Assembly (NCBI GenBank): GCA_012729755.1
Contig: JAAYCN010000036.1
Span: 1 to 57,270, forward strand
DNA length: 57,270 bases
Reading direction: 5' to 3'
Origin: Chloroflexota bacterium
GTDB lineage: Bacteria > Chloroflexota > Anaerolineae > Anaerolineales > Anaerolineaceae
The translations under genes and the position numbers were made by a program. A model generated the notes under the pieces. The model did no database searches, was not told the DNA's origin, and saw only the letters and a program-made list of their open reading frames with translations. This document shows, piece after piece, positions 16,828-35,273 of the stretch (position 1 is its first letter; each line of letters starts with the position of its first letter).

Positions 16828-18300
16828 ATGACCGAAATTGAAAAAGACCCCAGTAATCAAAAAGACAACCAACAGGCGGCGCTAATCCCTCAGGATAATG
16901 TCGTAAAAACCCGCCATACGCTGAAATTAGGCGAAAAAACGCTGGATTATACAGTTACTACAGGGACACTTATTCTAAAGGAAGAAGATGAAAAATTAGG
17001 CGAAAAGCCAAAAGCATCTATCTTTTACGTGGCTTATCAGCTGCAAACGGATACGCCAAAGGCAGAGAGGCCGGTGACTTTTTCGTTTAATGGCGGGCCA
17101 GGGTCGGCTTCGGTATGGATGCACCTGGGGATGTTGGGTCCAAAACGGGTGTTGATGGACGAAGAAGGCATGCCATTACCGCCGCCATACCGCCTGGTTG
17201 ACAACGAATATACACTGCTCGAGGAAAGCGACCTGGTCTTTATCGACCCGGTGTCAACAGGTTTCTCGCGGGCGGTCCCTGGAGAGAAGGCGGACGAATT
17301 CCATGGGGTCAAAAAGGACATTGAATCGGTTGGTGATTTCATTTATCGCTGGACAACACGTAATCATCGCTGGAGCAGTCCGAAGTATCTGATTGGTGAA
17401 TCTTACGGCACGACACGCGCGTCTGGTTTGTCGCTTTACCTGCAGCAGCGACATGGCATGTATTTGAACGGCATCATGTTGATTTCGGTGGTGCTGAATT
17501 TCATCACACTGTGTTTTGACAGTGGCAATGATTTGCCCTTCCCCCTGATTCTGCCTTCTTATACCGCTTCCGCATGGTATCACAAGGCGCTTGCCGAAGA
17601 CCTGCAGGCCGATTTGGCGGGCGCTTTGCGCGAAGCGGAGCAGTTTGCTGCTGGCGAGTATACGCTGGCGCTGCTCAAGGGGTCTGCCATCCCAAAGGCT
17701 GAAAAAGACTTGGTTACCCGCAAGCTTTCACGCCTGACCGGCTTATCCCAGCGCTATCTCGAGGATCATAATTTACGCGTAGCCACGCATCAGTTCTGTA
17801 AAGAACTGCGCCGCAAGGAAGGCATTGTGGTAGGGCGGCTTGACAGCCGTTACATCGGCCAGGAGCAGGACAACGCTTCTGATGAGTATCAACGCGACCC
17901 ATGCTATTCAGCGATTTTGGGCCCATATGCCGCGGCGTTAAACGGCTATGTCAGGGAAGAGTTGGAGTTTGAGTCTGATATTCCCTATGAGATGATCAAA
18001 GGGCTTGAAAAATGGGAAGCGGATCAATCCCGATATATCAATGTGGCTGACGATTTAAGGGACGCGTTTTTCATTAATCCGGCCCTGCGGGTGTTTATCG
18101 CCAATGGTTTTTATGATTTGGCGACGCCCTATTTCGCTACCGAGTATACGATCAGCCATCTCGGCCTGCCCGCGAATCTCGCTGAGCGCATCCATATGAG
18201 CTATTTTGAATCGGGGCACATGATGTACCTGCATCTGCCATCGCTGGCGAGGATCAGCGGTGAACTGAAGAAGTTTGTGACGAACGCTGAACTGTCATGA
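16828..18300 (+). CDS. Serine carboxypeptidase-like peptidase, family S10
   Basis: A 490-residue enzyme of the S10 alpha/beta-hydrolase fold. FNGGPGSASVWMHLGMLGP near residue 90 is the oxyanion and substrate-carboxylate region. The catalytic triad is visible as GESYG (Ser near 192), ANGFYDLATPYF (Asp near 430) and ESGHMMY (His near 464). No signal peptide is seen, so it likely acts in the cytosol, as many bacterial S10 members seem to. The family removes C-terminal residues from peptides. AGGAGG lies just before the ATG. It is monocistronic, after the RHS remnants, and unrelated to them. Confidence 0.9.
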   Translation: MTEIEKDPSNQKDNQQAALIPQDNVVKTRHTLKLGEKTLDYTVTTGTLILKEEDEKLGEKPKASIFYVAYQLQTDTPKAERPVTFSFNGGPGSASVWMHLGMLGPKRVLMDEEGMPLPPPYRLVDNEYTLLEESDLVFIDPVSTGFSRAVPGEKADEFHGVKKDIESVGDFIYRWTTRNHRWSSPKYLIGESYGTTRASGLSLYLQQRHGMYLNGIMLISVVLNFITLCFDSGNDLPFPLILPSYTASAWYHKALAEDLQADLAGALREAEQFAAGEYTLALLKGSAIPKAEKDLVTRKLSRLTGLSQRYLEDHNLRVATHQFCKELRRKEGIVVGRLDSRYIGQEQDNASDEYQRDPCYSAILGPYAAALNGYVREELEFESDIPYEMIKGLEKWEADQSRYINVADDLRDAFFINPALRVFIANGFYDLATPYFATEYTISHLGLPANLAERIHMSYFESGHMMYLHLPSLARISGELKKFVTNAELS

Positions 18301-18848: not shown

Positions 18849-20626
18849 TCAAAAATTGGCTTTGAAAATAAGGCAAGCGTGTGATTCAAGCGTTATTTCG
18901 GCTTTACCGGTGTCAGATCCTGGGTGTGTGATGGTCTGTGTCACATCGCTGAGATTGACAGCCAGATGGAGAACTGGTTGACCGCCAACCAAAATTTGCC
19001 AGAGGGCAAGTTGTTTTTGGTCATCGACAAGGAGGCATTGCCAACGCGCGCCGGTAAAGCTATGATAGCGATCGCGAAGTTGACTCAATTCTTGGAACAA
19101 TTTCCGATGCTTTCGCAGTCTGTTTTGATCGCTCCAAACCATTGGTACGCGTGATTCATCGAAACCAATAGCTCCGTCCTGATAGATTGAGCGGGGTTGA
19201 TTAAGGGCGATTTCCGTGCCGGCATAGACAATAACAGGCTGCGGGAGCAGGTAGAGAAGCGTGATGGCTACCTCCAACAGGCGCTCATCCCCGCCAGCAG
19301 TGAACAGGAAACGGTTCATGTCGTGGTTGTCGATAAAAACTGGCCGGCTGAAGTCAGGTGGAAAGGCTTGAGAGCTAACCTCAAGATAAGCGGCAAGTTT
19401 TGAGAGCGGCGAAGCGCGGCGGGCGATGCTCTCGCGAAAAGCCTGACAGGTTAAAAAGTCGAGTGTACCGTGCATGCCGCCAGCGAAAGAGGCCTGCACT
19501 TCGGCCGTTGAAATGATCTCGCCGAAAGTCCAGCAATCCGGGTTTGTTTCCGCGCAGGTCCTTCGGAAGTCGACCCAGAAATCAGGCTCAGGGCCATGCG
19601 CATAGTCAAGACGGTAGCCATCCACACCAAATTCGAGCCATTGTCTGGCGACCTGCAATAGGTAAGTGCGGGCAGGTGAGCCATAGGAAAGATTAAGCTG
19701 AGGCATGTTGCGCACATTAAAAAAAGTGCGGTAATGAGGCCAGCGCGACCAGTTGTACCATTCCCGATAGGGGTTATCGCGGTCAGACAGGGCAGCGCGC
19801 AGGCTTTGATGCTGTGAAGAAGTGTGGTTGGCGACAAAATCGAGGATAACTCTCATCCTGCGGGCGTGCGCCTGATCAATCAGTTCTCTTAGGTCGGCTT
19901 CATTTCCCAGGCGGGGCTCTATCCTGGTGTAGTCGGAGGTGTCATAACCGTGATGGCTGGGGCTTTTAAAGATTGGGGAGAGCCAGATGGCGTTGAAGTC
20001 AAAACTCGCGATGTGATCGAGCCGTTCGATCACGCCGCGCAGCGTGCCGCCCATTGGCTGTTTCAAACTGGCGGTCTGCGACCAGGGTTGATTACCACCG
20101 GGGTCAAATCTATCCAGGAAGATCTGGTAAACACGCGCGTCTTTTGACCAATCAGGCAGCTGATCTGTGCCGTACCAAATGGCAAATTGGCGGCTTGACG
20201 GGGTCGGGCAGCCTGGTTATCCGCGTAAATCCTGTCTGGTTTGGCTTTTTGCGCGCCACTGGTCAGTTCAGCCCAAACCTGATAGCGCAGCATGATGTTT
20301 TCAGGCTGGGGCGGCAGCGTCACCTGCCAGGTTCTGATCCAACCCCACAATAACGTCGACCAGTCTTGTGAGGTTTCGACACATTCGAGCGTCTGTGTGG
20401 TTTGCCACTCGTTGGTGGTGAAAGCAACTCTGACAGCCTGAACTGGCAAATCACTGCTGATGGTGATGGTTAACGTGACCGAATCATCTGGGCGGGGAAT
20501 GGCAGGTGATTTGGCGGACCAATGGTGCACGCCTCTGAGACGTTTGATGGCGAAAGCAGCGCCTTTTTTAGGAAAGTCTATATCCCCAAAGATATGGTCA
20601 ACAGTCAAATCGTTCGGTCTATTCAT
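18849..20626 (-). pseudogene. GH13 alpha-amylase family enzyme, one frameshift
   Basis: Two frames make one GH13 enzyme. The first runs from ATG 20626 (GAGG upstream) and encodes an N-terminal beta-sandwich domain ending at QAARPRQ. From about 20195 the reading continues in another frame: SSRQFAIWYGTDQLPDWSK, VYQIFLDRFDPGG, and then the (beta/alpha)8 core. The core keeps the GH13 regions DFVANH, GYRLDYAH (nucleophile Asp), FGEI (acid Glu) and FIDNHD. The shift falls in a C-rich run near 20199-20207, so it may be a slip in the organism or a sequencing error. Without a signal peptide the enzyme would act inside the cell on imported dextrins, in keeping with the maltodextrin ABC genes at 30.5-35.3 kb. 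Total length would be about 590 residues, like neopullulanase-type enzymes. Confidence 0.85.
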
Positions 20627-20785
20627 TTGTGCCCTCAATAAAGTCAGTGTCTAATCCTTATATTTCAGTTTGTGATTGGTCTGACAGGTTAGTGTTGCCA
20701 GATGGACAATATAACCAGTTCAAATCCCAATGATAACGATATAACCAAAAATAGCATAGGCGGGTGTATTGGGATAGTGGCCATC

Positions 20786-21789: not shown

Positions 21790-22725
21790 TTAATAGCATT
21801 CTGTTGCTTTTAGAACTTCCTGATAACGCCTTGTCCGCTCAGAAATTATGTCTGAAGAAAAATGATGAACTCCGAAACCATCCATTTCAAATCCTGCACT
21901 TACAGCAGCCATGGCAAGGCTAGATTCAACCGATTGGGTTCCATAGGTAGAACCGACCAAGAGACCACCAACATAAGCATTTCCGGCTCCTGTTTGATCA
22001 ATCAACGAGCTGTCACTTGGTGGGCAATACCAGATGTGTTTAGTATCCGAGAAGAAAGAACCTTTTTCCCCTGCTCGGATGCTGATGTTTTTGCAGCCCC
22101 AAATATGGAATCGATTAATGATCTCCTTTAGATCTACCCGGTTGACTATTTTAATAGCTTCATCTAAATTTGGCGAATAGATATCAATTAATGAAAATAG
22201 TGCTTTGAAGTAATCCTGATCATTCTCTACTTCACGAGGTGAAGGTTCCTGAATGATACAAGCTTCCGGATTGGACCTTCGTAATGCGGTCAGAAAAGCA
22301 ATGATTTCTTTTGGAAAACCACTCCAGATAATATGATATCCGTCAGCTGATAAAAATTCATTGGGCAATCTGTCTTCCGCGAGCGCGGGTGGGTCGACAT
22401 GATTTGCAGGATCTTTGAAGATCTGGATGCGATGTCCTTCCGGTTGGAAGAGTTGCCAGGCTACGGTCGTTTTCGGTTTAGTTTCCTGAATGCCGCTTAA
22501 ATTAACCTGCAGTAGGTTTAAACGCGAGCGGTATTCGGAAAAATCATGTCCTACTGTTGCCACCAGACCAATTTCGTCTTCATACCAGACCCGCATGCCT
22601 GCGATAGCATGCGGTCCAGCTCCGCCTATTTCGTTAAAGCGAACGTCTCCATTATACGTTAGGATATCTTCAACGAAGATATTGGAAATACTAATGAGCA
22701 GATGCTTAAAGTGCTTCAATTTCAT
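21790..22725 (-). CDS. PfkB-family sugar kinase-like protein with Asn at the catalytic-base position
   Basis: A 311-residue ribokinase-fold protein. It has the N-terminal sheet ending GGAGPHAIAGMRVWYED and the C-terminal PfkB signature. That signature reads DQTGAGNAYVGG where the family normally has GAGD, so the catalytic base Asp is replaced by Asn (codon AAT). A GGN form occurs in some PfkB subfamilies (for example yeast Mak32-like proteins), so activity cannot be excluded. I chose the Met at 22725, which overlaps the SIS gene end by 20 bp. It is the last gene of the YjbQ-SIS-PfkB operon. In the known fructoselysine pathway an SIS deglycase (FrlB) and a PfkB kinase (FrlD) act in turn, which offers a model for this pair. 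Confidence 0.8.
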   Translation of the reverse strand: MKLKHFKHLLISISNIFVEDILTYNGDVRFNEIGGAGPHAIAGMRVWYEDEIGLVATVGHDFSEYRSRLNLLQVNLSGIQETKPKTTVAWQLFQPEGHRIQIFKDPANHVDPPALAEDRLPNEFLSADGYHIIWSGFPKEIIAFLTALRRSNPEACIIQEPSPREVENDQDYFKALFSLIDIYSPNLDEAIKIVNRVDLKEIINRFHIWGCKNISIRAGEKGSFFSDTKHIWYCPPSDSSLIDQTGAGNAYVGGLLVGSTYGTQSVESSLAMAAVSAGFEMDGFGVHHFSSDIISERTRRYQEVLKATECY

Positions 22726-23842
22726 CTTTGGAGAGCAATTGATTGTCGCGGATGGTGTTTGCATAGCGAGGATAGCCTTCGATATTTTCGCGATAGTAGC
22801 TGGCTCTTTTCATGTCCGATAAGTGTGTCGTAAAAAGTTCGATACCTACGGGATTTACGATGGGAGCAAAAAAGGGATTAACACCCTCACTTACCCTCAG
22901 ATGGTAGTCACTCTGCAAAACGAGTTCTTCACAGGAATTTTCACATACTGTAATGATCTTCCGCCCGATACGTTTCATTGGCACGAGCAATTCAAGCATA
23001 CGGGTATATCCACGACCTTTCGAAGTAATTAGGAAAGTGGGGATTTCAGAAAAGGCGTTTTCAAAATACTGGAGGTGGGCCCATTCCTCAGTTTCTTGTG
23101 GAATGGCGATATAACCTACTCCCTCGGTAATTTTCGCTGCAGCGAAGTGAGCACTGGCTAAATGAGGACCATCACCGAGGAAGGTGTAATACTTAGTATT
23201 CACCATCTGAGTTGCAAGTTCCTGAGCAATATCGGCATTCGCTTTAATTCCCCAAGCGACTTGGTCAGCGCAGGACTTTAATTGGTCCCTCAGCCGGTTT
23301 CCTTCCGTGGCACTAATCCGGCGTCGAACTTCTGCGATGTGGGTGCCGAAAAGGTAGAGAGCGAGCTGTGAGACCCGATATGAAGCAACACCCGGACTGC
23401 GAGGTAAAGCTTTTAGCTTGCAGGGAATGATCCGATCTGCACTTTTGGCAAGCGGACTCTCCAGATCTCCAACAAGGGCGATCGTCAAAAAATCGTTAGC
23501 TTGAGCCACTTTTAACGCCTCCACAGTTCTAATCACGCGGCCTGATACAGAGATCGCTAACACTAAAGGATTTCGTGGAAAGGCGCTCTGGTAATCAACT
23601 AGATCATATCGAGAAGCTTCCATGGCTCTTACAGCTCTGGTTTGAATGTTGCAAACTTTCCGGAAGAAACGTTCTGCGCCTAAACCGGCAAACCAGGAAT
23701 CACCGCATCCGGTAAACACGATCTCTTTGATCGAAGTAATCTCACGGAAGCTAAGTACTTCTCTGACAACTTTATCAAGCGTGACAACCTGTTCCCCAAT
23801 TAATTCGGGCAAGTATAGAATTTCGTTCAGCATATTTGACAT
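22706..23842 (-). CDS. SIS-domain sugar-phosphate isomerase or deglycase
   Basis: A 378-residue protein with two SIS domains in the AgaS/FrlB/GlmS-isomerase arrangement. The first has FTGCGDSWFAGLGAERF near residue 45 and LAISVSGRVIRTVEA near 95. The second has TFLGDGPHLASAHFAA near 215 and the PQETEEWAHLQYF segment, the place of the catalytic Glu and His of such enzymes. I chose the Met at 23842, since the frame upstream is the antisense-like tail over YjbQ; AAGGGTG precedes it. It starts 4 bp after the yjbQ stop. The likely substrate is a phosphorylated amino sugar or Amadori compound, but this is inference from family and partners. Confidence 0.82.
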   Translation of the reverse strand: MSNMLNEILYLPELIGEQVVTLDKVVREVLSFREITSIKEIVFTGCGDSWFAGLGAERFFRKVCNIQTRAVRAMEASRYDLVDYQSAFPRNPLVLAISVSGRVIRTVEALKVAQANDFLTIALVGDLESPLAKSADRIIPCKLKALPRSPGVASYRVSQLALYLFGTHIAEVRRRISATEGNRLRDQLKSCADQVAWGIKANADIAQELATQMVNTKYYTFLGDGPHLASAHFAAAKITEGVGYIAIPQETEEWAHLQYFENAFSEIPTFLITSKGRGYTRMLELLVPMKRIGRKIITVCENSCEELVLQSDYHLRVSEGVNPFFAPIVNPVGIELFTTHLSDMKRASYYRENIEGYPRYANTIRDNQLLSKDEIEAL

Positions 23843-23846
23843 GGGT

Positions 23847-24257
23847 TCACCCTTTGATGAATTTAACTTGAATAGTGCGTGTTCTGGGTCCGTCAAACTC
23901 CCAGAATAAAATGGCTTGCGATCTTCCAAAGGTGAAGTCACCATTGCTGACAATTAAAGCAAGGTCAGTACCAATTAAACTGGTTTTAATGTGGCCAGCC
24001 GCATCAGTTGGAGTATCTCGGATATGACTAAAATCGATTCGAGTAGGCACCAGACGGTTGATTTCGGAATTCAAATCTTTTGCGGTATCAGGATCCAAAT
24101 AAGAATTGATAGTCAGCCCAGCTGTTGAATGAGGGACAAAAATAAAACACATTCCATCCTCGAGGTTAGTTTCTTTAATTAAGGCACGTACTTGTGGAGT
24201 AATATCAATTAAATCGTGCCAATCGCTTGTCTGAATTTGTATTGTATGCAAAGTCAT
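23847..24257 (-). CDS. yjbQ: YjbQ/UPF0047 family protein
   Basis: A 136-residue protein of the YjbQ (UPF0047) family, of the expected length. Conserved parts include GMCFIFVPHSTAGLTINSY, with the conserved His and Thr, IDFSHIRDTPTDAAGHIKTSLIG and the GRSQAILFWEFDGPRTR end. Some members can replace thiamine-phosphate synthase weakly, but the true role is unknown. AGGAG is visible before the ATG. It heads a tight operon with the SIS and PfkB genes and follows the last ABC permease gene by 21 bp, so it likely belongs to one transcript with the transporter. Its place in a sugar-use operon argues against thiamine synthesis here. Confidence 0.88.
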   Translation of the reverse strand: MTLHTIQIQTSDWHDLIDITPQVRALIKETNLEDGMCFIFVPHSTAGLTINSYLDPDTAKDLNSEINRLVPTRIDFSHIRDTPTDAAGHIKTSLIGTDLALIVSNGDFTFGRSQAILFWEFDGPRTRTIQVKFIKG

Positions 24258-24278: not shown

Positions 24279-25553
24279 TTATTTTGACTCAGTTTCATAG
24301 GGCTGCCCCCCTGCAGCTGGTCCGATATTTCTCCCCACAACCCCGCCCAAAACAATAATTGTGATGACATAAGGTAGCATGGCAAGGATTTTGGAAGGAA
24401 TTGCCACATCAAAGATCGCTAACTTGAGTGAGATTGACTCGGCAAACCCAAACAACAGACCTCCGCCGGCGGCGTTAATAGGATTCCATTTTCCGAAAAT
24501 CATGGCTGCTAAAGCTATGAAGCCTCGTCCGGCCGTCATTTGTTCATTAAATGACCCAATAGATCCAATGCTGAAGAAAGAACCACCGAGTCCAGCGATC
24601 AGACCACTTAAAATAACAGCCCGGGTCCGTGTCCGATTAACTTTTATACCAAGCGTATCAGCAGCTTTGGGGTGTTCACCTACAGATCGAAGGCGAAGGC
24701 CCCACTTAGTCTGGAAAATCGCGAAGTTAAGCACGATGACCAGAATATACATAAGGTAGGCAAAGATATTTTGGTTAAAGAAAACTGGGCCGATCACTGG
24801 GATCTTTGAGAATAGCGGAATTTCGAATGGAAAGAAAAACCCCGGATTATTCAGATAAGCGTAATCAAGCGATTGGATATATTTTTCTGAAAAATAGGAA
24901 GTGATGCCAATCGCAAAAAGATTAATGATTGTGCCAGAAATTACATTATTGGCCTTGTATTTGACACACATCGTGGCGTGAATCCAAGCGATTAAACCGC
25001 CGGTAAGAATGCCCACCAATAAACCGACCCACAGATTAGTAAGACTCGCGACGACGCTGGCAGTAAAAGCAGCCGAAAGCATCATACCTTCAATGGCGAT
25101 ATTGACGACTCCAGACCTCTCAGATAGTATTCCAGCCATAGCGCCAATGATTAGAGGAATGCTACGGACGACCATTACGCTCAATAGGCCTGTAATGTTA
25201 ATGGAGCTTCCACTGACACTCCAAACGATGAAACCGAAAGTGAAGAGAAGAAAAACGATCCCTAACACCAATGTAAACTTACTTCTAAAACCAATAATTA
25301 GTTGATATATTCCTGCCAGACCAATGATAACTGCGATAACAATAATTGTCTGCCTTGAGTTTAGCACTAGGTCATTTGTCATAATGGAAGAGCTAGCATG
25401 AGTGAGGTTTAAAGTGGTTTGCGTGATCGCGTCCAAATTTTGGGTGAAGAGAACAACCATCACCAGAGCAAGAATGATAAATAGAGCACCGAGCCGCTTG
25501 TTTTTAAGAAAAATGATCGATTGGATGTTGTTCGAGTTTGTTTCTTTTTCCAT
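24279..25553 (-). CDS. BMP/nucleoside-type ABC permease, second subunit
   Basis: A 424-residue membrane protein of the BPD_transp_2 family (RbsC/NupQ type). The first helix and a loop come before the core with MAGILSERSGVVNIAIEGMML near residue 140 and LRSVGEHPKAADTLGIKV near 290, the EAA-like loop that contacts the ATPase. It is longer at the N-terminus than NupQ (about 320) by roughly 110 residues holding two extra helices. It pairs with the permease at 25554-26792, whose stop codon directly precedes its ATG. Related systems import nucleosides, but the catabolic genes downstream suggest another substrate. Confidence 0.88.
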   Translation of the reverse strand: MEKETNSNNIQSIIFLKNKRLGALFIILALVMVVLFTQNLDAITQTTLNLTHASSSIMTNDLVLNSRQTIIVIAVIIGLAGIYQLIIGFRSKFTLVLGIVFLLFTFGFIVWSVSGSSINITGLLSVMVVRSIPLIIGAMAGILSERSGVVNIAIEGMMLSAAFTASVVASLTNLWVGLLVGILTGGLIAWIHATMCVKYKANNVISGTIINLFAIGITSYFSEKYIQSLDYAYLNNPGFFFPFEIPLFSKIPVIGPVFFNQNIFAYLMYILVIVLNFAIFQTKWGLRLRSVGEHPKAADTLGIKVNRTRTRAVILSGLIAGLGGSFFSIGSIGSFNEQMTAGRGFIALAAMIFGKWNPINAAGGGLLFGFAESISLKLAIFDVAIPSKILAMLPYVITIIVLGGVVGRNIGPAAGGQPYETESK

Positions 25554-26792
25554 CTAGATACTCACTTTAGTGATTAATGTTTCTTCGGAGCTTGCTTTTT
25601 TGACACGGAATATTGTGCGGATTAAGGCAGGAGTGGCGATGAAAAACATAATGGTAGCTTGCATGACTGGGATAATATGATGTGGAACACCTGCGCGGAG
25701 GCTCATGAATTTTGAAGCACTGGTAAAGAAACCAAAGAATAGCGCCGCTATCATTGCCCCAACAGGCTGAAGTCCTCCGATAAGGGCAAGCGAAATCGCG
25801 TTGCGTCCATAACCTGATGTGAAATTGAGTGAGTTCATAAAATAGCTGATGCCTTGAATCTCATTTGCCCCAGCTAAGCCTGCCAATGCACCTGATAATG
25901 CTAAGGACATGATTGTGAGTTTAGTTGTATTCATTCCTGCATTTTTCGCACCTTGTGGATTTAGGCCGGCTTGGCGAAGTTCAAACCCCCAGATTGTCTT
26001 AAATAGAAAGAAATTAACAATCGGGACCATGGCGATAGCGATAAAGAATCCAATATGGAAGCGGATAGGTGGCTCAAAGAAGCGGAAGAACTGGGCATGC
26101 TCCGAGATAGGAGGGGTTTGAGGCGTAAAAACCGCAGGATCGCGCAATGGTCCTGAAGCCATATAATCGACGAACAATACGGCGATGTAGTTCATCATGA
26201 TACCTGTGATGACTTCATGAGCGCCCGTTTTTGCTTTGAGCCAACCCGGAAAAGCTCCCCACAAAGCGCCGGCTAACATTCCTGAGAACGTAGTGAGAGG
26301 GACATGAATGATAGAGGGGAGGCTGTGGGTCGAGAAACCGACCCAAACTGCTGCAATTCCTCCCATGAAGACCTGGCCCTCAGCGCCGATGTTCAAGAAG
26401 CCTGACCGAAAGGCTAGGGTTAGCGCCAGCGCTGTAATGATATATGGAGTGGATACGGTAAGACTTTCGAAGAACGGGTTAATCGCAATCCTTATTGTCT
26501 GAGGATCTCCATTTTGAAAAGCGCTGATAATTCGCTTAGGTTCTCCGAACGCGCCAACAAAGATGGATTCGAGCGTTTTCCCCATGGTTCGAAAACTGAC
26601 TTGGATGCCCTCCCAAAAGGAGTTCCTAAATCCAGCATATACTGCGTCAGTTGTAAGAATGATTAATACAGCGCCAAATAGAAAGCCGAGCACAATCGCA
26701 GCTAAAATGTAGAAAGAAGATGTCTTCGAGTATTCCTCGAAAAAAATCTTGATCGCGTTGTTCGCAGACTTCATCGAAAAATTCTTTTTCAT
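25554..26792 (-). CDS. BMP/nucleoside-type ABC permease, first subunit
   Basis: A 412-residue permease of the NupP type, the partner of the previous gene. Core motifs are ALTLAFRSGFLNIGAEGQVFMGG near residue 130, GAHEVITGIMMNYIA near 195 and LRQAGLNPQGAKNAGMNT near 275. A large periplasmic segment lies between the first and second helices. Its start codon overlaps the ATPase stop by 4 bp (ATGA), showing tight coupling within the operon. Substrate cannot be read from the sequence. Confidence 0.88.
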   Translation of the reverse strand: MKKNFSMKSANNAIKIFFEEYSKTSSFYILAAIVLGFLFGAVLIILTTDAVYAGFRNSFWEGIQVSFRTMGKTLESIFVGAFGEPKRIISAFQNGDPQTIRIAINPFFESLTVSTPYIITALALTLAFRSGFLNIGAEGQVFMGGIAAVWVGFSTHSLPSIIHVPLTTFSGMLAGALWGAFPGWLKAKTGAHEVITGIMMNYIAVLFVDYMASGPLRDPAVFTPQTPPISEHAQFFRFFEPPIRFHIGFFIAIAMVPIVNFFLFKTIWGFELRQAGLNPQGAKNAGMNTTKLTIMSLALSGALAGLAGANEIQGISYFMNSLNFTSGYGRNAISLALIGGLQPVGAMIAALFFGFFTSASKFMSLRAGVPHHIIPVMQATIMFFIATPALIRTIFRVKKASSEETLITKVSI

Positions 26793-28354
26793 ACTGATTT
26801 ATCCACAAGTTGTTGTGAGGTTAATACTTTTTGAGGGTTTGTCAGGTCGACTCCGGCCATTAATAAGCCAACGTCTTCTTTGACAATCTCAGATGTGTTG
26901 TGAATTGCAATCACACTACCACGATACATTACTCCAACACGATCCGAAAGCTGCATAATTTCATCTAACTCTGTTGAGACCAGCAAAACAGCACAGCCTT
27001 CATCGCGCAATTGCAATAGTCGTTTTTGGGTGTACTCAATAGACCCCACGTCAAGGCCTCGGGTAGGTTGAGCTGCTATCACCAGCTTGATTGGCCTCGA
27101 CAGTTCTCTGGCAATGATTACTTTTTGCTGATTTCCGCCGGATAGTTTTGCTACTGGTACATGGGGGTTGCGTGGACGGATGTCATAAGATTCTACCAGC
27201 TTCGCTGCGTTCTGATTAATCGCATTCGTTTGGATCAGATGCTTTTTCGCGAAAGGCGGCAAGTAATAGCGGTTCAGAATCAAGTTATCTGAAACCTCGC
27301 TCTGCAACACTAATCCATCAGCTTGTCGGTCTTCCGGGATGTGTGCTGTTCCCAGCTCAGTAATCCTTCGAGGACTTGCCTTGGTAATGTCCTCACCAAG
27401 TAACTTAATTCTTCCCTCAATGGGGTGAATCAAGCCTACCAAAGCCCTCACCAGTTCAGTTTGGCCATTTCCCTGAACGCCCGCAATCCCAAAAATCTCG
27501 CCCTCACGTACGTCAAAAGAAACCCGATTAACCTCAGCTTTCTGTTGTCTACCAAGGATGCTAACATTTTCAACCTCGAGGACTTTCTTGCCCGCTCTCA
27601 ATGGACTTTTGGTGAGATTCATATCCACCGGACGCCCAACCATTAAGGCTGCAAGCCGATTGACATCGGCATCTTTGGTCAAAGCTTCACCTACGACTTT
27701 CCCTGCTCGTATGACACAGATCCGGTTTGAAATCTCCATAACCTCTCGTAATTTGTGGGTAATGAAGATGATAGATTTTCCCTCTTCGACTAATGATCTA
27801 ACTGTCAGGAATAATTCACCTACCTCTTTTGGGGTGAGGACAGCTGAGGGTTCGTCCATAATGAGTATGTCTGCATCTCGATAAAGTAATTTTATAATTT
27901 CAATTCTTTGTTGCAGACCAACCGAAAGGTCTCCGACTAGCGCATCTGGATTAATCTGCAGCTTGTAGGCGTCAGATAGTTTTCTGATTCGGGTAGCGGT
28001 ATCAGCACGATCCAGCACGTCCAGATATTTAACTTGCTCGTTTCCTAACATGACGTTCTCAGTAACTGTAAATACTGGTATCAACATAAAATGTTGATGT
28101 ACCATCCCAATGCCAGCATTGATGGCGTCCAAAGGACTCTGGATGTTAACCTTTTGCCCATTAATATAAATTTCGCCCTGGTCAGGTTTATAAAGCCCAT
28201 AAAGAACGTTCATTAAGGTTGTCTTGCCGGCACCGTTCTCACCAAGAAGGGCTAAAATCTCACCTTTATGAAGAGTGATGTTAATATTGTCATTGGCTTT
28301 GAAATTGCCAAAACTTTTGGTAATTCCTCTTAATTCAAGAACAATTTCGCTCAT
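26789..28354 (-). CDS. BMP/nucleoside-type ABC ATPase, two cassettes
   Basis: A 521-residue double-cassette ATPase like RbsA/NupO. The first cassette has Walker A GENGAGKTT near residue 40, LSVGLQQR and LIMDEPSA; the second has the degenerate GVQGNGQTE, LSGGNQQK and the AAQPTRGLD segment typical of the second half. Signature GMVHQHFMLIP is present. I chose the ATG at 28354 with GAAGGCGAG upstream rather than the GTG five codons earlier. It energises the two permeases and is fed by the lipoprotein at 28423-29493. The second transporter at 48.5-53.7 kb has the same layout, a paralogous system. Confidence 0.9.
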   Translation of the reverse strand: MSEIVLELRGITKSFGNFKANDNINITLHKGEILALLGENGAGKTTLMNVLYGLYKPDQGEIYINGQKVNIQSPLDAINAGIGMVHQHFMLIPVFTVTENVMLGNEQVKYLDVLDRADTATRIRKLSDAYKLQINPDALVGDLSVGLQQRIEIIKLLYRDADILIMDEPSAVLTPKEVGELFLTVRSLVEEGKSIIFITHKLREVMEISNRICVIRAGKVVGEALTKDADVNRLAALMVGRPVDMNLTKSPLRAGKKVLEVENVSILGRQQKAEVNRVSFDVREGEIFGIAGVQGNGQTELVRALVGLIHPIEGRIKLLGEDITKASPRRITELGTAHIPEDRQADGLVLQSEVSDNLILNRYYLPPFAKKHLIQTNAINQNAAKLVESYDIRPRNPHVPVAKLSGGNQQKVIIARELSRPIKLVIAAQPTRGLDVGSIEYTQKRLLQLRDEGCAVLLVSTELDEIMQLSDRVGVMYRGSVIAIHNTSEIVKEDVGLLMAGVDLTNPQKVLTSQQLVDKSV

Positions 28355-28381
28355 CAGTCTCGCCTTCACAATAAACTAAGG

Positions 28382-28422: not shown

Positions 28423-29493
28423 TTAAGGAATAGTTTTGAGTTCACCAGAAATTACTTTCTTAGCGAGTTCATCAATCTCGGCTTTCAATTCAGGAGTTAC
28501 ATCAACTGCACATTTTGCGCCGCCATATGCGAGATTGGTACCGCCGTTCTCTAGCGTGCCGACATAATCGCCACCTTTGAAGGTGCCATCCAGAACCTGT
28601 TTGATAGCCTCATATGAGAATACATCCACACGCTTGACGACACTGGCAAGAATGTGATCGGCATACTCTGGATTGGATACGAACCAGTCGCGGTCAACAC
28701 CGATCATGCATCCCTCTCCTCGTTCAACTAAGGCTGAGGCAGTTCCGATGCTAACTGACCCTGCAACAGGCAGGATGATATCAACACCTTCGTCCATGAA
28801 ACTTAGAGTCAGATTCTTGCCCGCATCCTGATCCTGGAAGTTTCCAATTTGCGCCGTTTCTTCTTTCTTTTCAGGATCATACCCAATCAACTGCACATTG
28901 GCACCCTTGCTCTCGTTGTAATACTTGATTCCCATGTAGAAACCATCAACAAAAGCCTGAGTTGCTGGCGCAAGTTGACCTACGAAGGTGCCGACCTTGC
29001 CGGTTTTGCTCATCGCAGCTGACAAGTAGCCAGCCAAGAAGCAGGTCTGGTCCATGCGGGTAGTATTACCTAAGACATTAGGTTTACCCTCACCGGTGTT
29101 ATCGATGATAGCATATTTTTGTTGGGGATTACCATCCGCAGAGGCTAAAGCCGCTGGTGCAGAGCGAAAACCTGTGGTAATTACCAGATCAGCCCCTTCA
29201 GCAATACAAGCGGCAGTGTTAGCTTCATAATCAGAGTTCTGCTTTGTCACAAGGTAGGAAGCTTCGATGCCAAAATCCTTGGCAGCTTTCTGAGTGCCTT
29301 CCCATCCCATCTGATTAAACGATTTGTCACTTACACCGCCTTCGGCAACAACCTGACAAACTTTGAACGGTTTTGTTGGTGCTTCAGTTGCGTTATTGAT
29401 GTTAGTTTCTTTAGCGGGTTGGGCGCTTGAAGTACATGCTGAGATCAACAGCCCAATTATCAAAATAATTAACAATATTTGACGGTTTTTCAT
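28423..29493 (-). CDS. BMP-family substrate-binding lipoprotein
   Basis: A 356-residue binding protein of the BMP (basic membrane protein, Med/PnrA) family. The signal ends in lipobox ISAC (Cys20). Family motifs: VVAEGGVSDKSFNQMGWEG, EGADLVITTGFR and KTGKVGTFVGQL. Family members bind purine nucleosides, though others bind unrelated ligands. It is the first gene of the transporter set after the GntR gene, 111 bp apart, with AGGAGA before the ATG. A hairpin follows the stop codon. With the YjbQ-SIS-PfkB genes at the end of the operon, the ligand could be a glycated or amino-sugar compound, which is inference. Confidence 0.9.
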   Translation of the reverse strand: MKNRQILLIILIIGLLISACTSSAQPAKETNINNATEAPTKPFKVCQVVAEGGVSDKSFNQMGWEGTQKAAKDFGIEASYLVTKQNSDYEANTAACIAEGADLVITTGFRSAPAALASADGNPQQKYAIIDNTGEGKPNVLGNTTRMDQTCFLAGYLSAAMSKTGKVGTFVGQLAPATQAFVDGFYMGIKYYNESKGANVQLIGYDPEKKEETAQIGNFQDQDAGKNLTLSFMDEGVDIILPVAGSVSIGTASALVERGEGCMIGVDRDWFVSNPEYADHILASVVKRVDVFSYEAIKQVLDGTFKGGDYVGTLENGGTNLAYGGAKCAVDVTPELKAEIDELAKKVISGELKTIP

Positions 29494-29604: not shown

Positions 29605-30318
29605 TCAGGCATATAACCTGATTTTGTATGCGAAAGTCTCAGCAATATAGATAATCCGAACGACCTCAATACTTTTCCATTCTTCTGAATAAGTGGTTCT
29701 CCAGATCTCGATTAGTGGATCGTTCACCTTCACATTCAAGATCTCTGCAATTTCTGCATTGGCGCTTAGCGCAGTGATGGTTTCATCGGCATATTTCGGC
29801 ATGAGCTTAAACTTTTGCGCAATCAGCCCATAATATGACTTCATATCCCACAATTCATTTGGCGAGAAATCAAAATGCGGAGGTAGATAAAGCTGGTGTA
29901 GGGCATATGTTTTTTTGTCACCAAGGCATAATCTCTGAACGTACCATAAGTGTTGTACGTCATCTGCTCCCATCAATTTGCGTACAATTGCTGGGGGTTC
30001 CACAATCTGCACATTCAAGGTTTTATAGGTTGGCTTGATTCCTCTGGCTCGCATCAATTCAGAGAAACTAGTCAGTTTCATTAGATCAGGTTCTATTTTT
30101 TTTTGCAGGATAACTGAACCTACACCCGGTTTTCTCAAAATTAATTCATCATTCTCAAGCTCATTTAATGCGTTGCGAATTGTGGCGCGGCTGACTGAGT
30201 ATATATTTTGTAGTTCAAACTCAGGAGGAAGTAACTCGCCAGGCTCTGAATCTTTGATGGTCTGGAGTAGTTTCTCTTTAATTTGCTTGTATAGGGGAAG
30301 ATTGGATTTTATTTCCAT
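29605..30318 (-). CDS. GntR-family regulator with UTRA domain
   Basis: A 237-residue regulator of the HutC subgroup. Residues about 8-70 form the winged helix (PLYKQIKEKLLQTI, then SVSRATIRNALNELENDELI). Residues about 85-235 form the UTRA ligand-binding domain, which in this subgroup senses small molecules such as sugar phosphates or histidine products. It is encoded just before the transporter genes on the same strand. Two TATGTACGTA sites lie directly before it, downstream of a good promoter, so it likely represses itself and perhaps the operon. FrlR, the regulator of fructoselysine genes, has the same fold, in keeping with the SIS and PfkB genes downstream. Confidence 0.9.
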   Translation of the reverse strand: MEIKSNLPLYKQIKEKLLQTIKDSEPGELLPPEFELQNIYSVSRATIRNALNELENDELILRKPGVGSVILQKKIEPDLMKLTSFSELMRARGIKPTYKTLNVQIVEPPAIVRKLMGADDVQHLWYVQRLCLGDKKTYALHQLYLPPHFDFSPNELWDMKSYYGLIAQKFKLMPKYADETITALSANAEIAEILNVKVNDPLIEIWRTTYSEEWKSIEVVRIIYIAETFAYKIRLYA

Positions 30319-33114: not shown

Positions 33115-34698
33115 TTACTTGACGTTGATGGTCAGCAGGTGGGTGGCTTCGTCGTAGACAAAGTCGACTTCGCCGTCAGCGTCCAGAGTGAACTTGTAGT
33201 TGTCGCCATTAGCTTCGCCGTCAACACCGTAATTGGTGGTCCAGTTGCCGTCCAGGGCGACTTTAACTTCATATTCGCCAGCCTTCAGAGCGAAGGGGCC
33301 GGAAACCCATAAACCCTCGTCGTTCTTGGACATCTGGGTGGCGGCGCATTCAGGCGCCCAGGCGGCTTCACAGCCAGCCTGATCCTGATAGGAGCCGGGC
33401 ACGTTCACCATGCCGTAGGCAGGGTTGGCGATGAGGGCGCGGATCTTCTCGGCGCCTTCCTTGAGGGCGGTTTTAGCGTCTTGTTTGCCATCGCGCACGA
33501 GGAGGATCGAGGTGTCCCAGTTGCCCCAGACGGAGCCCATGGCGGGGATGGCGGGCATAGCGGTGGCGTTGATACCAGCTTTGCCGAAGGCGATCAGATC
33601 AGCGTCATCCAGTTTTTCGAGTACGGAGATGAAAGCTGAGGGGCGCTGGCCGACGTTATAAAGTTCGGTCATGGTGTCCTCGGTGGCAACAAACTCGGTC
33701 AGGAAAGCTTGGGCCAACAGCTTGTTTTCACTCTGTTCGTTGATCAGAACAGTCTGAACACCAGAGAAGGGGTAACCTTCGCCAGCGGGGCCGGCGGGGA
33801 AGTTAGTAATAGCATAGGGAATGCCAGACTGGCGGATGCGATCGAGCGCCCATGGGCCAGCCATAATGAAGGGGGCGGCGCCGGTTTCGAAGAGGGCGTG
33901 GTTATTAGCCCAATCCCAGTCCGCGGGGATATTGCCCTTGTCGAGCTGATCCTTGAGCCACTGCGCGGCGGCGATCATGCCTTCGCTGTCAACGCCAAGA
34001 TCCTGGTCGTTCCAGTTGCCGTTGGCATCTTTACCGAAGATGTAGCCGCCGAAGGCGGTGTACAACGGGTAAAGGTCATAGGTGGTACCGGTTACAGCCA
34101 TGATGTAATCGACTTTATCTTCCGCTTTCAGGGCTTCGCCCATCTCGACAACCTCATCCCATGTGGTGGGAGCAGTTTCGACGAGATCGGTGTTGTAGAA
34201 GAAAGCGAGGTTCTCGGTCGCGTAGGGCATGCAGTAAAGCTTGCCATCGTACTTGCAGGCATCCAGAGTGGAGGGCACGAACTGAGCAGCTTTTTCGCCG
34301 AGGTCGAGTTCAGCGGCGAGGCCGTTGGCGACAATGCTGGCAACCTGGTCGTGAGGAATACCGAAGAGGATATCGGGGCCTTCGCCGAGTGGGGCGGCAA
34401 GCTGGAAGTCATCGCGGAGCGATGATTTGAGCTCGATGTTCAGAGCCACATTGTATTCAGCGAGGAACGCGGGGGCTAATTTTTCGAGCGCGGGGGCGCG
34501 GGTGTCATCTGCCCAGATGCGCAGGGTAGCGGCAGGGGCAGCTTCGGTCGGAGCCTCAGTGGCGGCTTCGGTTGGCTTTGGTGCCTCGGTTGGAGCTTCG
34601 GTCGGGGCAGCGGTGGGGGCTGGCGCGGGCTGAGAACAGGCGCCGAGCACGAGAGTCGCAATCAAAAAGATCGCTGTGAACAATACACTTTTCTTCAT
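33115..34698 (-). CDS. malE: Maltodextrin-binding lipoprotein with C-terminal X25-like domain
   Basis: A 527-residue solute-binding lipoprotein. The lipobox is LGAC (Cys21), followed by an Ala/Pro/Thr/Glu-rich linker to about residue 60. Residues about 60-430 are a MalE-type fold (DILFGIPHDQVASIVANGLAAEL, KLYCMPYATENLAFFYN, ALFETGAAPFIMAGPWA). The last 85 residues (GLWVSGPFALKAGEYEVKVAL, NYGVDGEANGDNYKF) look like an X25/pullulanase-type starch-associated domain, unusual on a binding protein. I chose the ATG at 34698, with AGGAGA upstream, over a Met 21 codons earlier. It is followed by malF and malG and preceded by a MarR gene. Confidence 0.9.
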   Translation of the reverse strand: MKKSVLFTAIFLIATLVLGACSQPAPAPTAAPTEAPTEAPKPTEAATEAPTEAAPAATLRIWADDTRAPALEKLAPAFLAEYNVALNIELKSSLRDDFQLAAPLGEGPDILFGIPHDQVASIVANGLAAELDLGEKAAQFVPSTLDACKYDGKLYCMPYATENLAFFYNTDLVETAPTTWDEVVEMGEALKAEDKVDYIMAVTGTTYDLYPLYTAFGGYIFGKDANGNWNDQDLGVDSEGMIAAAQWLKDQLDKGNIPADWDWANNHALFETGAAPFIMAGPWALDRIRQSGIPYAITNFPAGPAGEGYPFSGVQTVLINEQSENKLLAQAFLTEFVATEDTMTELYNVGQRPSAFISVLEKLDDADLIAFGKAGINATAMPAIPAMGSVWGNWDTSILLVRDGKQDAKTALKEGAEKIRALIANPAYGMVNVPGSYQDQAGCEAAWAPECAATQMSKNDEGLWVSGPFALKAGEYEVKVALDGNWTTNYGVDGEANGDNYKFTLDADGEVDFVYDEATHLLTINVK

Positions 34699-34757
34699 TG
34701 ATTTCTCCTTTTGTGTGTGTTTGAAGTTTGCGGCGATAATGCCGTGCTTATTAAAGA

Positions 34758-35273
34758 TCATCTCATCCTCCCATAGCGATTGGCAGCGTTCAAAGGTGCT
34801 CCGGTTCTTGAGCTGCCGTTCTTGGGGGCTAAGGTGCTTTCAATGTGTTTGCTGACCTCGGTATAGTAGCTGATTTTATCGTCGTCAAATTGCGACATCA
34901 GCGAGTCAACGAGGTGGTTATATTGGGGCAGGACGCGTTCAAGCGTGGCTCTGCCTTTGACAGTGAGAAAAAGTTGATAGCTGCGGCCGTCCGCAGGGTG
35001 ATTCACGCGCTGGACAAGGCCGTCTTTTTGCATGGATTGTACAATGCGGGTAGTGTTGCCCTTGGTGCAGAGCATCAAGTCAGAAAGCTCGATATAGTTA
35101 ATGCCGGGATGATTGCTGAGGTGCAGGAGGATGTAGAAACGGGGCAAGGTTAGATCAAACTCACTAAATAGGGCCTTCTCATGGTTGTCAATATGCAAGA
35201 AAATTGCCTTGAGTGAGTTGTATAAAACTATTTCCTTGTTCTCAATCATCGTTGTCACAGCTTTTTCCGCCAT
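34758..35273 (-). CDS. MarR-family regulator
   Basis: A 171-residue winged-helix protein. TLPRFYILLHLSNHPGINYIELSDLM, then TKGNTTRIVQSMQKDGLVQRVNHPADGRSYQLFLTVKGRA, is the MarR DNA-binding core with the DGR wing. The C-terminus has an extra basic tail. It is the first gene of the maltodextrin operon, 59 bp before malE, and overlaps no other gene. The promoter before it holds an inverted repeat over the -10, which points to autorepression and control of the whole operon. Its effector is unknown; MarR control of a maltose operon is not the common design (LacI types are). Confidence 0.88.
   Translation of the reverse strand: MAEKAVTTMIENKEIVLYNSLKAIFLHIDNHEKALFSEFDLTLPRFYILLHLSNHPGINYIELSDLMLCTKGNTTRIVQSMQKDGLVQRVNHPADGRSYQLFLTVKGRATLERVLPQYNHLVDSLMSQFDDDKISYYTEVSKHIESTLAPKNGSSRTGAPLNAANRYGRMR

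Follow-up and report, generated by a model that had tools for sequence, protein, structure and literature searches.

By the textbook account, PfkB kinases depend for catalysis on the aspartate of their GAGD motif, and a protein that has lost it is usually written off as dead. A stretch of 57,270 nucleotides (positions 1 to 57,270 of contig JAAYCN010000036.1, assembly GCA_012729755.1) from a Chloroflexota bacterium of the Anaerolineaceae, which is called the window here at its full length, encodes a PfkB-family kinase in which this motif reads GAGN. Is the asparagine an accident of one gene, the mark of an inactive protein, or the property of a branch of the family that works with Asn? As judged from the alignments and the trees made, the window gene is a member of a conserved bacterial PfkB branch with a single origin, and the asparagine goes together with a glutamate and an arginine at two other positions.

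An asparagine shared by a branch of the family

The minus-strand open reading frame (ORF) of the kinase is uninterrupted and its translation includes SSLIDQTGAGNAYVGGLLVG. The longest version, 21790-22764, starts at 22764 and encodes the 324 residues on which the numbering used here is based; for a start at 22725, 13 is to be subtracted. The ATG at 22725 agrees with the start region of several homologous ORFs (e.g., L055, L053, L052 and L039), and a gene starting there overlaps the stop codon of the upstream SIS gene (22706-22708). The protein matches Pfam PfkB (PF00294) with 68.9 bits against a cut-off of 25.8. It stays below the cut-offs of the named NCBIfam equivalogs (ribokinase, fructokinase, tagatose kinase and others), of which ribokinase scores highest (52.2 of the 299.65 bits needed). 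The di-glycine hinge (G47, G48), the GAG anion hole (G259, A260, G261) and the NxxE motif (N199-L-D-E202) are all present, and the catalytic Asp of the canonical G-A/x-G-D motif is replaced by Asn262. The sequence-only reading had reported an anion-hole motif GAGN with the codon AAT, which is correct at 21979-21981 of the minus strand. Its description of the remaining fold as intact agrees with the hinge, the NxxE motif, the anion hole and an AlphaFold model with a predicted template modelling score (pTM) of 0.83.

The first homologue search covered the window's genome and 100 relatives, with loci returned for the best matches. In the alignment with close homologues that the sequence-only reading had suggested, all 16 best-matching loci besides the window have Asn at the motif position (25.6-35.9% identity), two of them being additional copies within the window's own genome; lower-ranking loci mix Asn and Asp. 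The window and the neighbourhoods of its relatives together provided 78 kinases, 37 with Asn at position 262 (Asn type) and 41 with Asp (Asp type). When a tree of these 78 rows was made without the three trait columns (173, 230 and 262), a single branch (99/91) divided all 37 Asn-type kinases from the Asp-type rows, which amounts to one change. A tree of 118 rows, likewise made without these columns, has two changes that are read as one gain and one nested reversion. L187 (genome G898) retains Glu173 and Arg230, has Asp at 262 and is nested inside the Asn clade; from its sequence and position it is read as a natural reversion to Asp. Both Asn codons occur among the 37 Asn-type genes, AAT in 26 and AAC in 11. 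The option that the protein belongs to a PfkB branch using Asn, one of two offered by the sequence-only reading, is thus supported by the homologue alignments and by trees that exclude the trait columns.

That reading had also held that Asp in homologues from identical operons would make the Asn a lone mutation. This is the case in part. A plasmid of Mesorhizobium huakuii (CP006583.2) carries an operon made up like that of the window, with a UTRA regulator, PfkB, SIS, BtpA and a BMP transporter, and its kinase reads GAGD; an operon similar to that of the window in genome G542 has a kinase with the motif GCGD. On the tree, however, both kinases lie among the Asp-type rows adjoining the Asn clade and outside it. 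It follows that operons of this kind also carry Asp-type kinases, and a lone mutation is still not implied.

Glu173, Arg230 and Asn262

Three residues at the edge of the predicted active site differ together between the two types of kinase in the alignments: the catalytic Asp is replaced by Asn262, an Asp by Glu173, and a Lys or Thr by Arg230. In the set of 78 kinases, Glu173 and Arg230 are present in 37/37 Asn-type proteins, and neither is found in any of the 41 Asp-type proteins. A larger alignment of 114 kinases, which omits the decayed row L166 and the non-kinase L167, was divided into an Asn and an Asp group on the basis of residue 262. The Asn group is invariant at columns 173 and 230 (54/54), the Asp group never has the same residues there (0/60), and no other column separates the groups in this way; the groups being defined by residue 262, only 173 and 230 were free to vary in this comparison. 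Identity within the 54-member Asn group averages 35% and falls to 15%, and the GG and GAG motifs are conserved across the branch.

The pooled alignment of 150 kinases, from which the 118-row tree was obtained by thinning at 75% identity, further omits three Asp-type rows (Ser173, Thr230) and two short partial rows. Glu173 and Arg230 occur together in 87 of these kinases, 86 with Asn262 and one with Asp262. Among the remaining 63, all of which have Asp262, position 230 is occupied by Lys (43) or Thr (20) and Glu173 does not occur. Sequences fetched later gave the same picture (residues at 173, 230 and 262 are written in that order). In the order set, 13/13 Asn rows are E-R-N, Lys or Thr occupies 230 in 18 Asp rows, and a single truncated row has A-R-G; in a further set, 4/4 Asn rows are E-R-N and one row is D-K-D. 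The class and phylum set of 41 rows contains 32 Asn rows, of which 31 are E-R-N, together with one E-R-D row (L187) and eight Asp-type rows, two of them partial. The 32nd Asn row has its Glu one column earlier and joins the E-R-N rows after realignment. Given that the triad is found in all 86 Asn-type kinases and that both Asn codons are used, the association is beyond chance.

The placement of the three residues was examined in the AlphaFold model, which is based on 19 sequences (the window protein and viral-contig relatives that are 13-18% identical). The mean predicted local distance difference test (pLDDT) value is 77.4, and that of the block around residue 173 is 73. In the model, residue 173 comes just after strand 169-172, residue 230 ends strand 227-230, and residue 262 is at the start of helix 260-275. 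This edge of strand ends and helix starts is the active-site edge in the PfkB fold. The nearest solved relative by sequence (4.6e-9) and by fold (Foldseek template modelling score 0.75, 19% identity) is 3kd6, a nucleoside kinase from Chlorobium tepidum. It resembles the window kinase in fold, GG hinge, NxxE motif and GAG anion hole, but the profile alignment places Asp at 173 and Lys at 230, and 3kd6 has the catalytic Asp where the window kinase has Asn.

The window kinase also departs from its own branch. It has Glu32, as opposed to Asp in 97.7% of 87 branch members; Val101, as opposed to Arg in 46/54 and His in 7/54 Asn-type rows; and Val265, as opposed to Cys in 18/21.

An active enzyme or a binding protein

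We infer, as somewhat probable, that the window kinase is still active as a phosphotransferase, with a rewired site and a riboside-like compound as its substrate. The three active-site-edge residues are kept up together with the GG and GAG motifs, which speaks for a site that is still in use. Binding of a riboside-like substrate and of a Mg-phosphate donor would be retained, and phosphate transfer most likely is as well. The lost base may be replaced by Glu173, or made unnecessary by a substrate group that does not have to be deprotonated, and Arg230 may hold the donor phosphates. The substrate would be a compound that the BMP-type transporter of the operon brings into the cell, and the SIS-domain enzyme would catalyze a later step in riboside salvage or breakdown. 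The Asn-type gene is the only PfkB gene found in the window (when ORFs were clustered, the kinase cluster took in no second PfkB ORF from the window), so nothing nearby obviously supplies the kinase step. For the branch as a whole, a more tentative proposal is that Glu-Arg-Asn kinases transfer phosphate without the Asp base of the superfamily, to a riboside or ribose-phosphate substrate that lacks an assigned pathway. Such a pathway would consist of the Asn-type kinase and the SIS enzyme, with BtpA, YjbQ and the transporter in some operons. A branch in which Asn is tied to two other site differences makes the rule that PfkB proteins are dead without Asp testable, with the natural E-R-D member L187 as a ready-made control, and it marks an unassigned gene set (SIS, BtpA, YjbQ and nucleoside hydrolases) as a probable riboside pathway.

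Several results weigh against an active phosphotransferase. Replacement of Asp with Asn in E. coli Pfk-2 is reported to remove most of the activity and to affect binding only mildly (PMC5405513), so that a protein that only binds fits equally well. The rows of the alignments are not independent; on the trees the triad arose once, and its linkage is shown by upkeep, not by repeated origin. The NxxE motif is incomplete in the Asn group, with E in 35/54 rows, partly as a result of alignment noise. A role of residue 173 on the metal side is also uncertain by spacing. In the pyrophosphate (PPi)-dependent kinase TM0415, D139, D173 and E176 surround the metal waters (PMC5931981), and the Asp that may correspond to residue 173, D139, lies 34 residues before NxxE, compared to 26 for residue 173. 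The window copy is itself a long branch on the trees, with further private substitutions. Asp-type PfkB genes are present in the larger clusters of relatives, and they have much the same neighbourhood as the Asn type: within 5 kb of the 37 Asn-type genes, several of whose loci end at contig ends, there are SIS genes in 27 cases, BtpA in 22, nucleoside hydrolases in 19 and YjbQ in 13, and within 5 kb of the 41 Asp-type genes in 29, 23, 25 and 17 cases, respectively. The Asp-type genes show the same neighbours because many come from the same clusters. Finally, a BMP binding protein is encoded within 5 kb of 0/37 Asn-type genes (the distance in the window is 5.7 kb) and of 4/41 Asp-type genes, so that the Asn branch as a whole is not characterized by the transporter.

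A protein that only binds ranks next after the active phosphotransferase, although it is rather unlikely. The Asn-type proteins would then be conserved pseudo-kinases that bind a nucleoside or nucleotide without catalysis and serve as a sensor, a regulator, or a partner of Asp-type kinases or of the SIS enzyme. The frequent company of Asp-type PfkB genes in clusters with the Asn type would suit such a role, as would the two Asn-type copies in one cluster at no fewer than eight loci, i.e., at least L039, L041, L042, L043, L090, L150, L151 and L152. However, Asn262 is as constant as the hinge glycines (86/87), and Glu173 and Arg230 are kept in all 86 Asn-type kinases, where drift would be expected without catalysis. 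The GG and GAG motifs are retained too, and one lineage appears to have gone back to Asp with Glu and Arg kept. Conserved PfkB proteins of this sort are known from plants: the fructokinase-like FLN1 and FLN2, to which the window kinase is likened by description, are reported to have no detected kinase activity (PMC5405513, PMC3409070). Unlike the window kinase, FLN1 and FLN2 are described there as parts of the plastid RNA polymerase complex (PMC5405513, PMC3409070).

It is quite unlikely that the PfkB fold of the Asn branch supports another reaction or uses another donor, e.g., transfer to a phosphate or carboxylate, for which no base is needed, or a donor other than ATP. The differences from Lys or Thr to Arg and from Asp to Glu do accompany the loss of the base, and TM0415, a PPi-using member of the ribokinase family, has donor-site arginines (PMC5931981), a position that Arg230 may share in the window kinase. 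Yet the published PPi signature RXGRGD is not found in the window kinase, where the sequence is DQTGAGN, and the residue between the glycines is Ala, Cys or Gly in all 54 Asn rows. TM0415 keeps both RXGRGD and its catalytic Asp (D234) (PMC5931981), as opposed to TGAGN in the window. Assignment of the window kinase as PPi-dependent by signature was therefore rejected.

It is highly improbable that the assembly contains a lone mutation, a sequencing error or a gene in decay here, and this explanation was rejected. The long branch of the window copy, with its private substitutions, would fit it, as would the relative L166, which lacks part of its N terminus and has Ala-Arg-Gly in place of the triad. 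These are outweighed by the uninterrupted reading frame, by the occurrence of both Asn codons, and by dozens of other genomes whose relatives of the kinase combine Asn with both companion residues.

Gene neighbourhood, distribution and other genes

The operon of the window consists of genes for a GntR/UTRA regulator, a BMP/PnrA-like protein, an ATP-binding cassette (ABC) ATPase, two permeases, YjbQ, the SIS protein and the kinase (Table 1). The SIS ORF overlaps that of YjbQ by 107 bases, which suggests that the true SIS start is probably at a lower coordinate.

Table 1. Positions of the kinase gene, its three diagnostic codons and the genes of its operon in the window.
Feature	Positions	Strand	Basis or remark
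Asn-type PfkB-family kinase (Glu173-Arg230-Asn262)	21790..22725	-	Pfam, alignment, tree
Asn262 codon AAT in GAGN	21979..21981	-	Catalytic-Asp position of PfkB kinases
Arg230 codon CGA (IRAGEKG)	22075..22077	-	Lys or Thr in Asp-type kinases
Glu173 codon GAA (QEPSP)	22246..22248	-	Asp, rarely Ser or Asn, in Asp-type kinases
SIS-domain protein similar to GlmS isomerase half	22706..23953	-	End overlaps kinase start
YjbQ/UPF0047 family protein	23847..24257	-	Profile match
ABC permease, BPD_transp_2	24279..25553	-	
ABC permease, BPD_transp_2	25554..26792	-	
ABC transporter ATPase, two ABC stretches	26789..28369	-	
BMP/PnrA-like substrate-binding protein	28423..29493	-	Bmp, 166.5 bits
GntR regulator with UTRA domain	29605..30318	-	

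In the FrlD/FrlB system, the gene for a fructoselysine-type kinase is paired with that for a SIS deglycase. The adjoining PfkB and SIS genes of the window are similar in arrangement and match both models weakly, but the scores are far under the curated cut-offs (29.6 of 247 and 18.6 of 430 bits, respectively). Fungal MAK32-type proteins, which have a GxGN-like motif and an N-terminal GGG stretch, are an unconfirmed lead only. No description of Asn-type bacterial PfkB proteins was found in the titles and abstract openings of the open-access papers listed, for some queries the best 10-20 of more, which does not prove its absence.

Also encoded in the clusters of relatives are Asp-type kinases, an amidohydrolase, a TrpF-like protein, adenosine deaminase and ribokinase, and one has an ADP-ribosylglycohydrolase. 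A special tie of the Asn type to nucleoside hydrolases was considered and dropped, these genes being within 5 kb of 19/37 Asn-type and 25/41 Asp-type genes. Three loci of one genus (L150, L151 and L152) share a long conserved cluster with nucleoside hydrolases, two SIS genes, two Asn-type and several Asp-type kinases, YjbQ, adenosine deaminase and ribokinase, with the ADP-ribosylglycohydrolase in L150. Genome G929 has three tandem Asn-type kinase genes (C222:4752-7614; L176) and three more profile matches on other contigs, one with an internal stop. Some Asn-type kinase ORFs are long: L041:7249-8922, L038:6482-7990 and L039:5527-7053 encode 557, 502 and 508 residues, respectively. In the first, the kinase is followed by a methyltransferase-like domain at the C terminus of the same protein, and the other two are alike by length alone. 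Separate methyltransferase genes also adjoin clusters with long Asn-type kinases.

Within the class of the window, the Asn branch is present in many families. It was also read on one plasmid of Rhizobium leguminosarum, and it looks rare elsewhere in the phylum. Profile matches were obtained in 33/147 genomes of the family (1e-30), 38/400 of the order (1e-45), 29/298 of the class (1e-50) and 8/301 of the phylum (1e-50); these samples overlap and the matches include non-Asn types. Motifs were read for the best candidates per genome among the matches listed, with at most 30 loci listed, and the Asn-type counts are lower bounds. The Asn type was read in genomes with at least 16 family codes of the window's class. 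Seven of the eight matching genomes of the phylum sample were read, with the Asn type in G000 and G044 and the Asp type in the other five. Among 72,556 plasmid records, searched by tblastn with five queries, three loci were read, L089 being Asn-type and L088 and L110 Asp-type. The R. leguminosarum plasmid carries one Asn-type gene (E-R-N), and a SIS gene lies 3.2 kb from it. The pattern G[A/G]GN[A/S][Y/F]CGG, searched in DNA, was found in one of 400 phylum genomes, in L167, which is not PfkB; the pattern misses the wording of the window itself and constrains the frequency little. No viral Asn-type relative was confirmed among 26 pattern stretches, and a PHROGs search gave one weak match of unknown function. 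L036, the sole locus from a scan of the genome's contigs, was set aside because by sequence it reads as a short-chain dehydrogenase, not a kinase.

Elsewhere in the window, positions 16828-18300 of the plus strand encode a homologue of the serine carboxypeptidases (Peptidase_S10), a family better known from eukaryotes. On the minus strand, an alpha-amylase ORF (18849-20066) and the ORF upstream of it (20063-20638) overlap by four bases in different frames, with a TTG start; they are possibly two coupled genes or one frameshifted gene. The minus-strand gene at 33115-34761 encodes a solute-binding protein with a C-terminal pullulanase-type X25 domain and adjoins a MalF-like permease gene.
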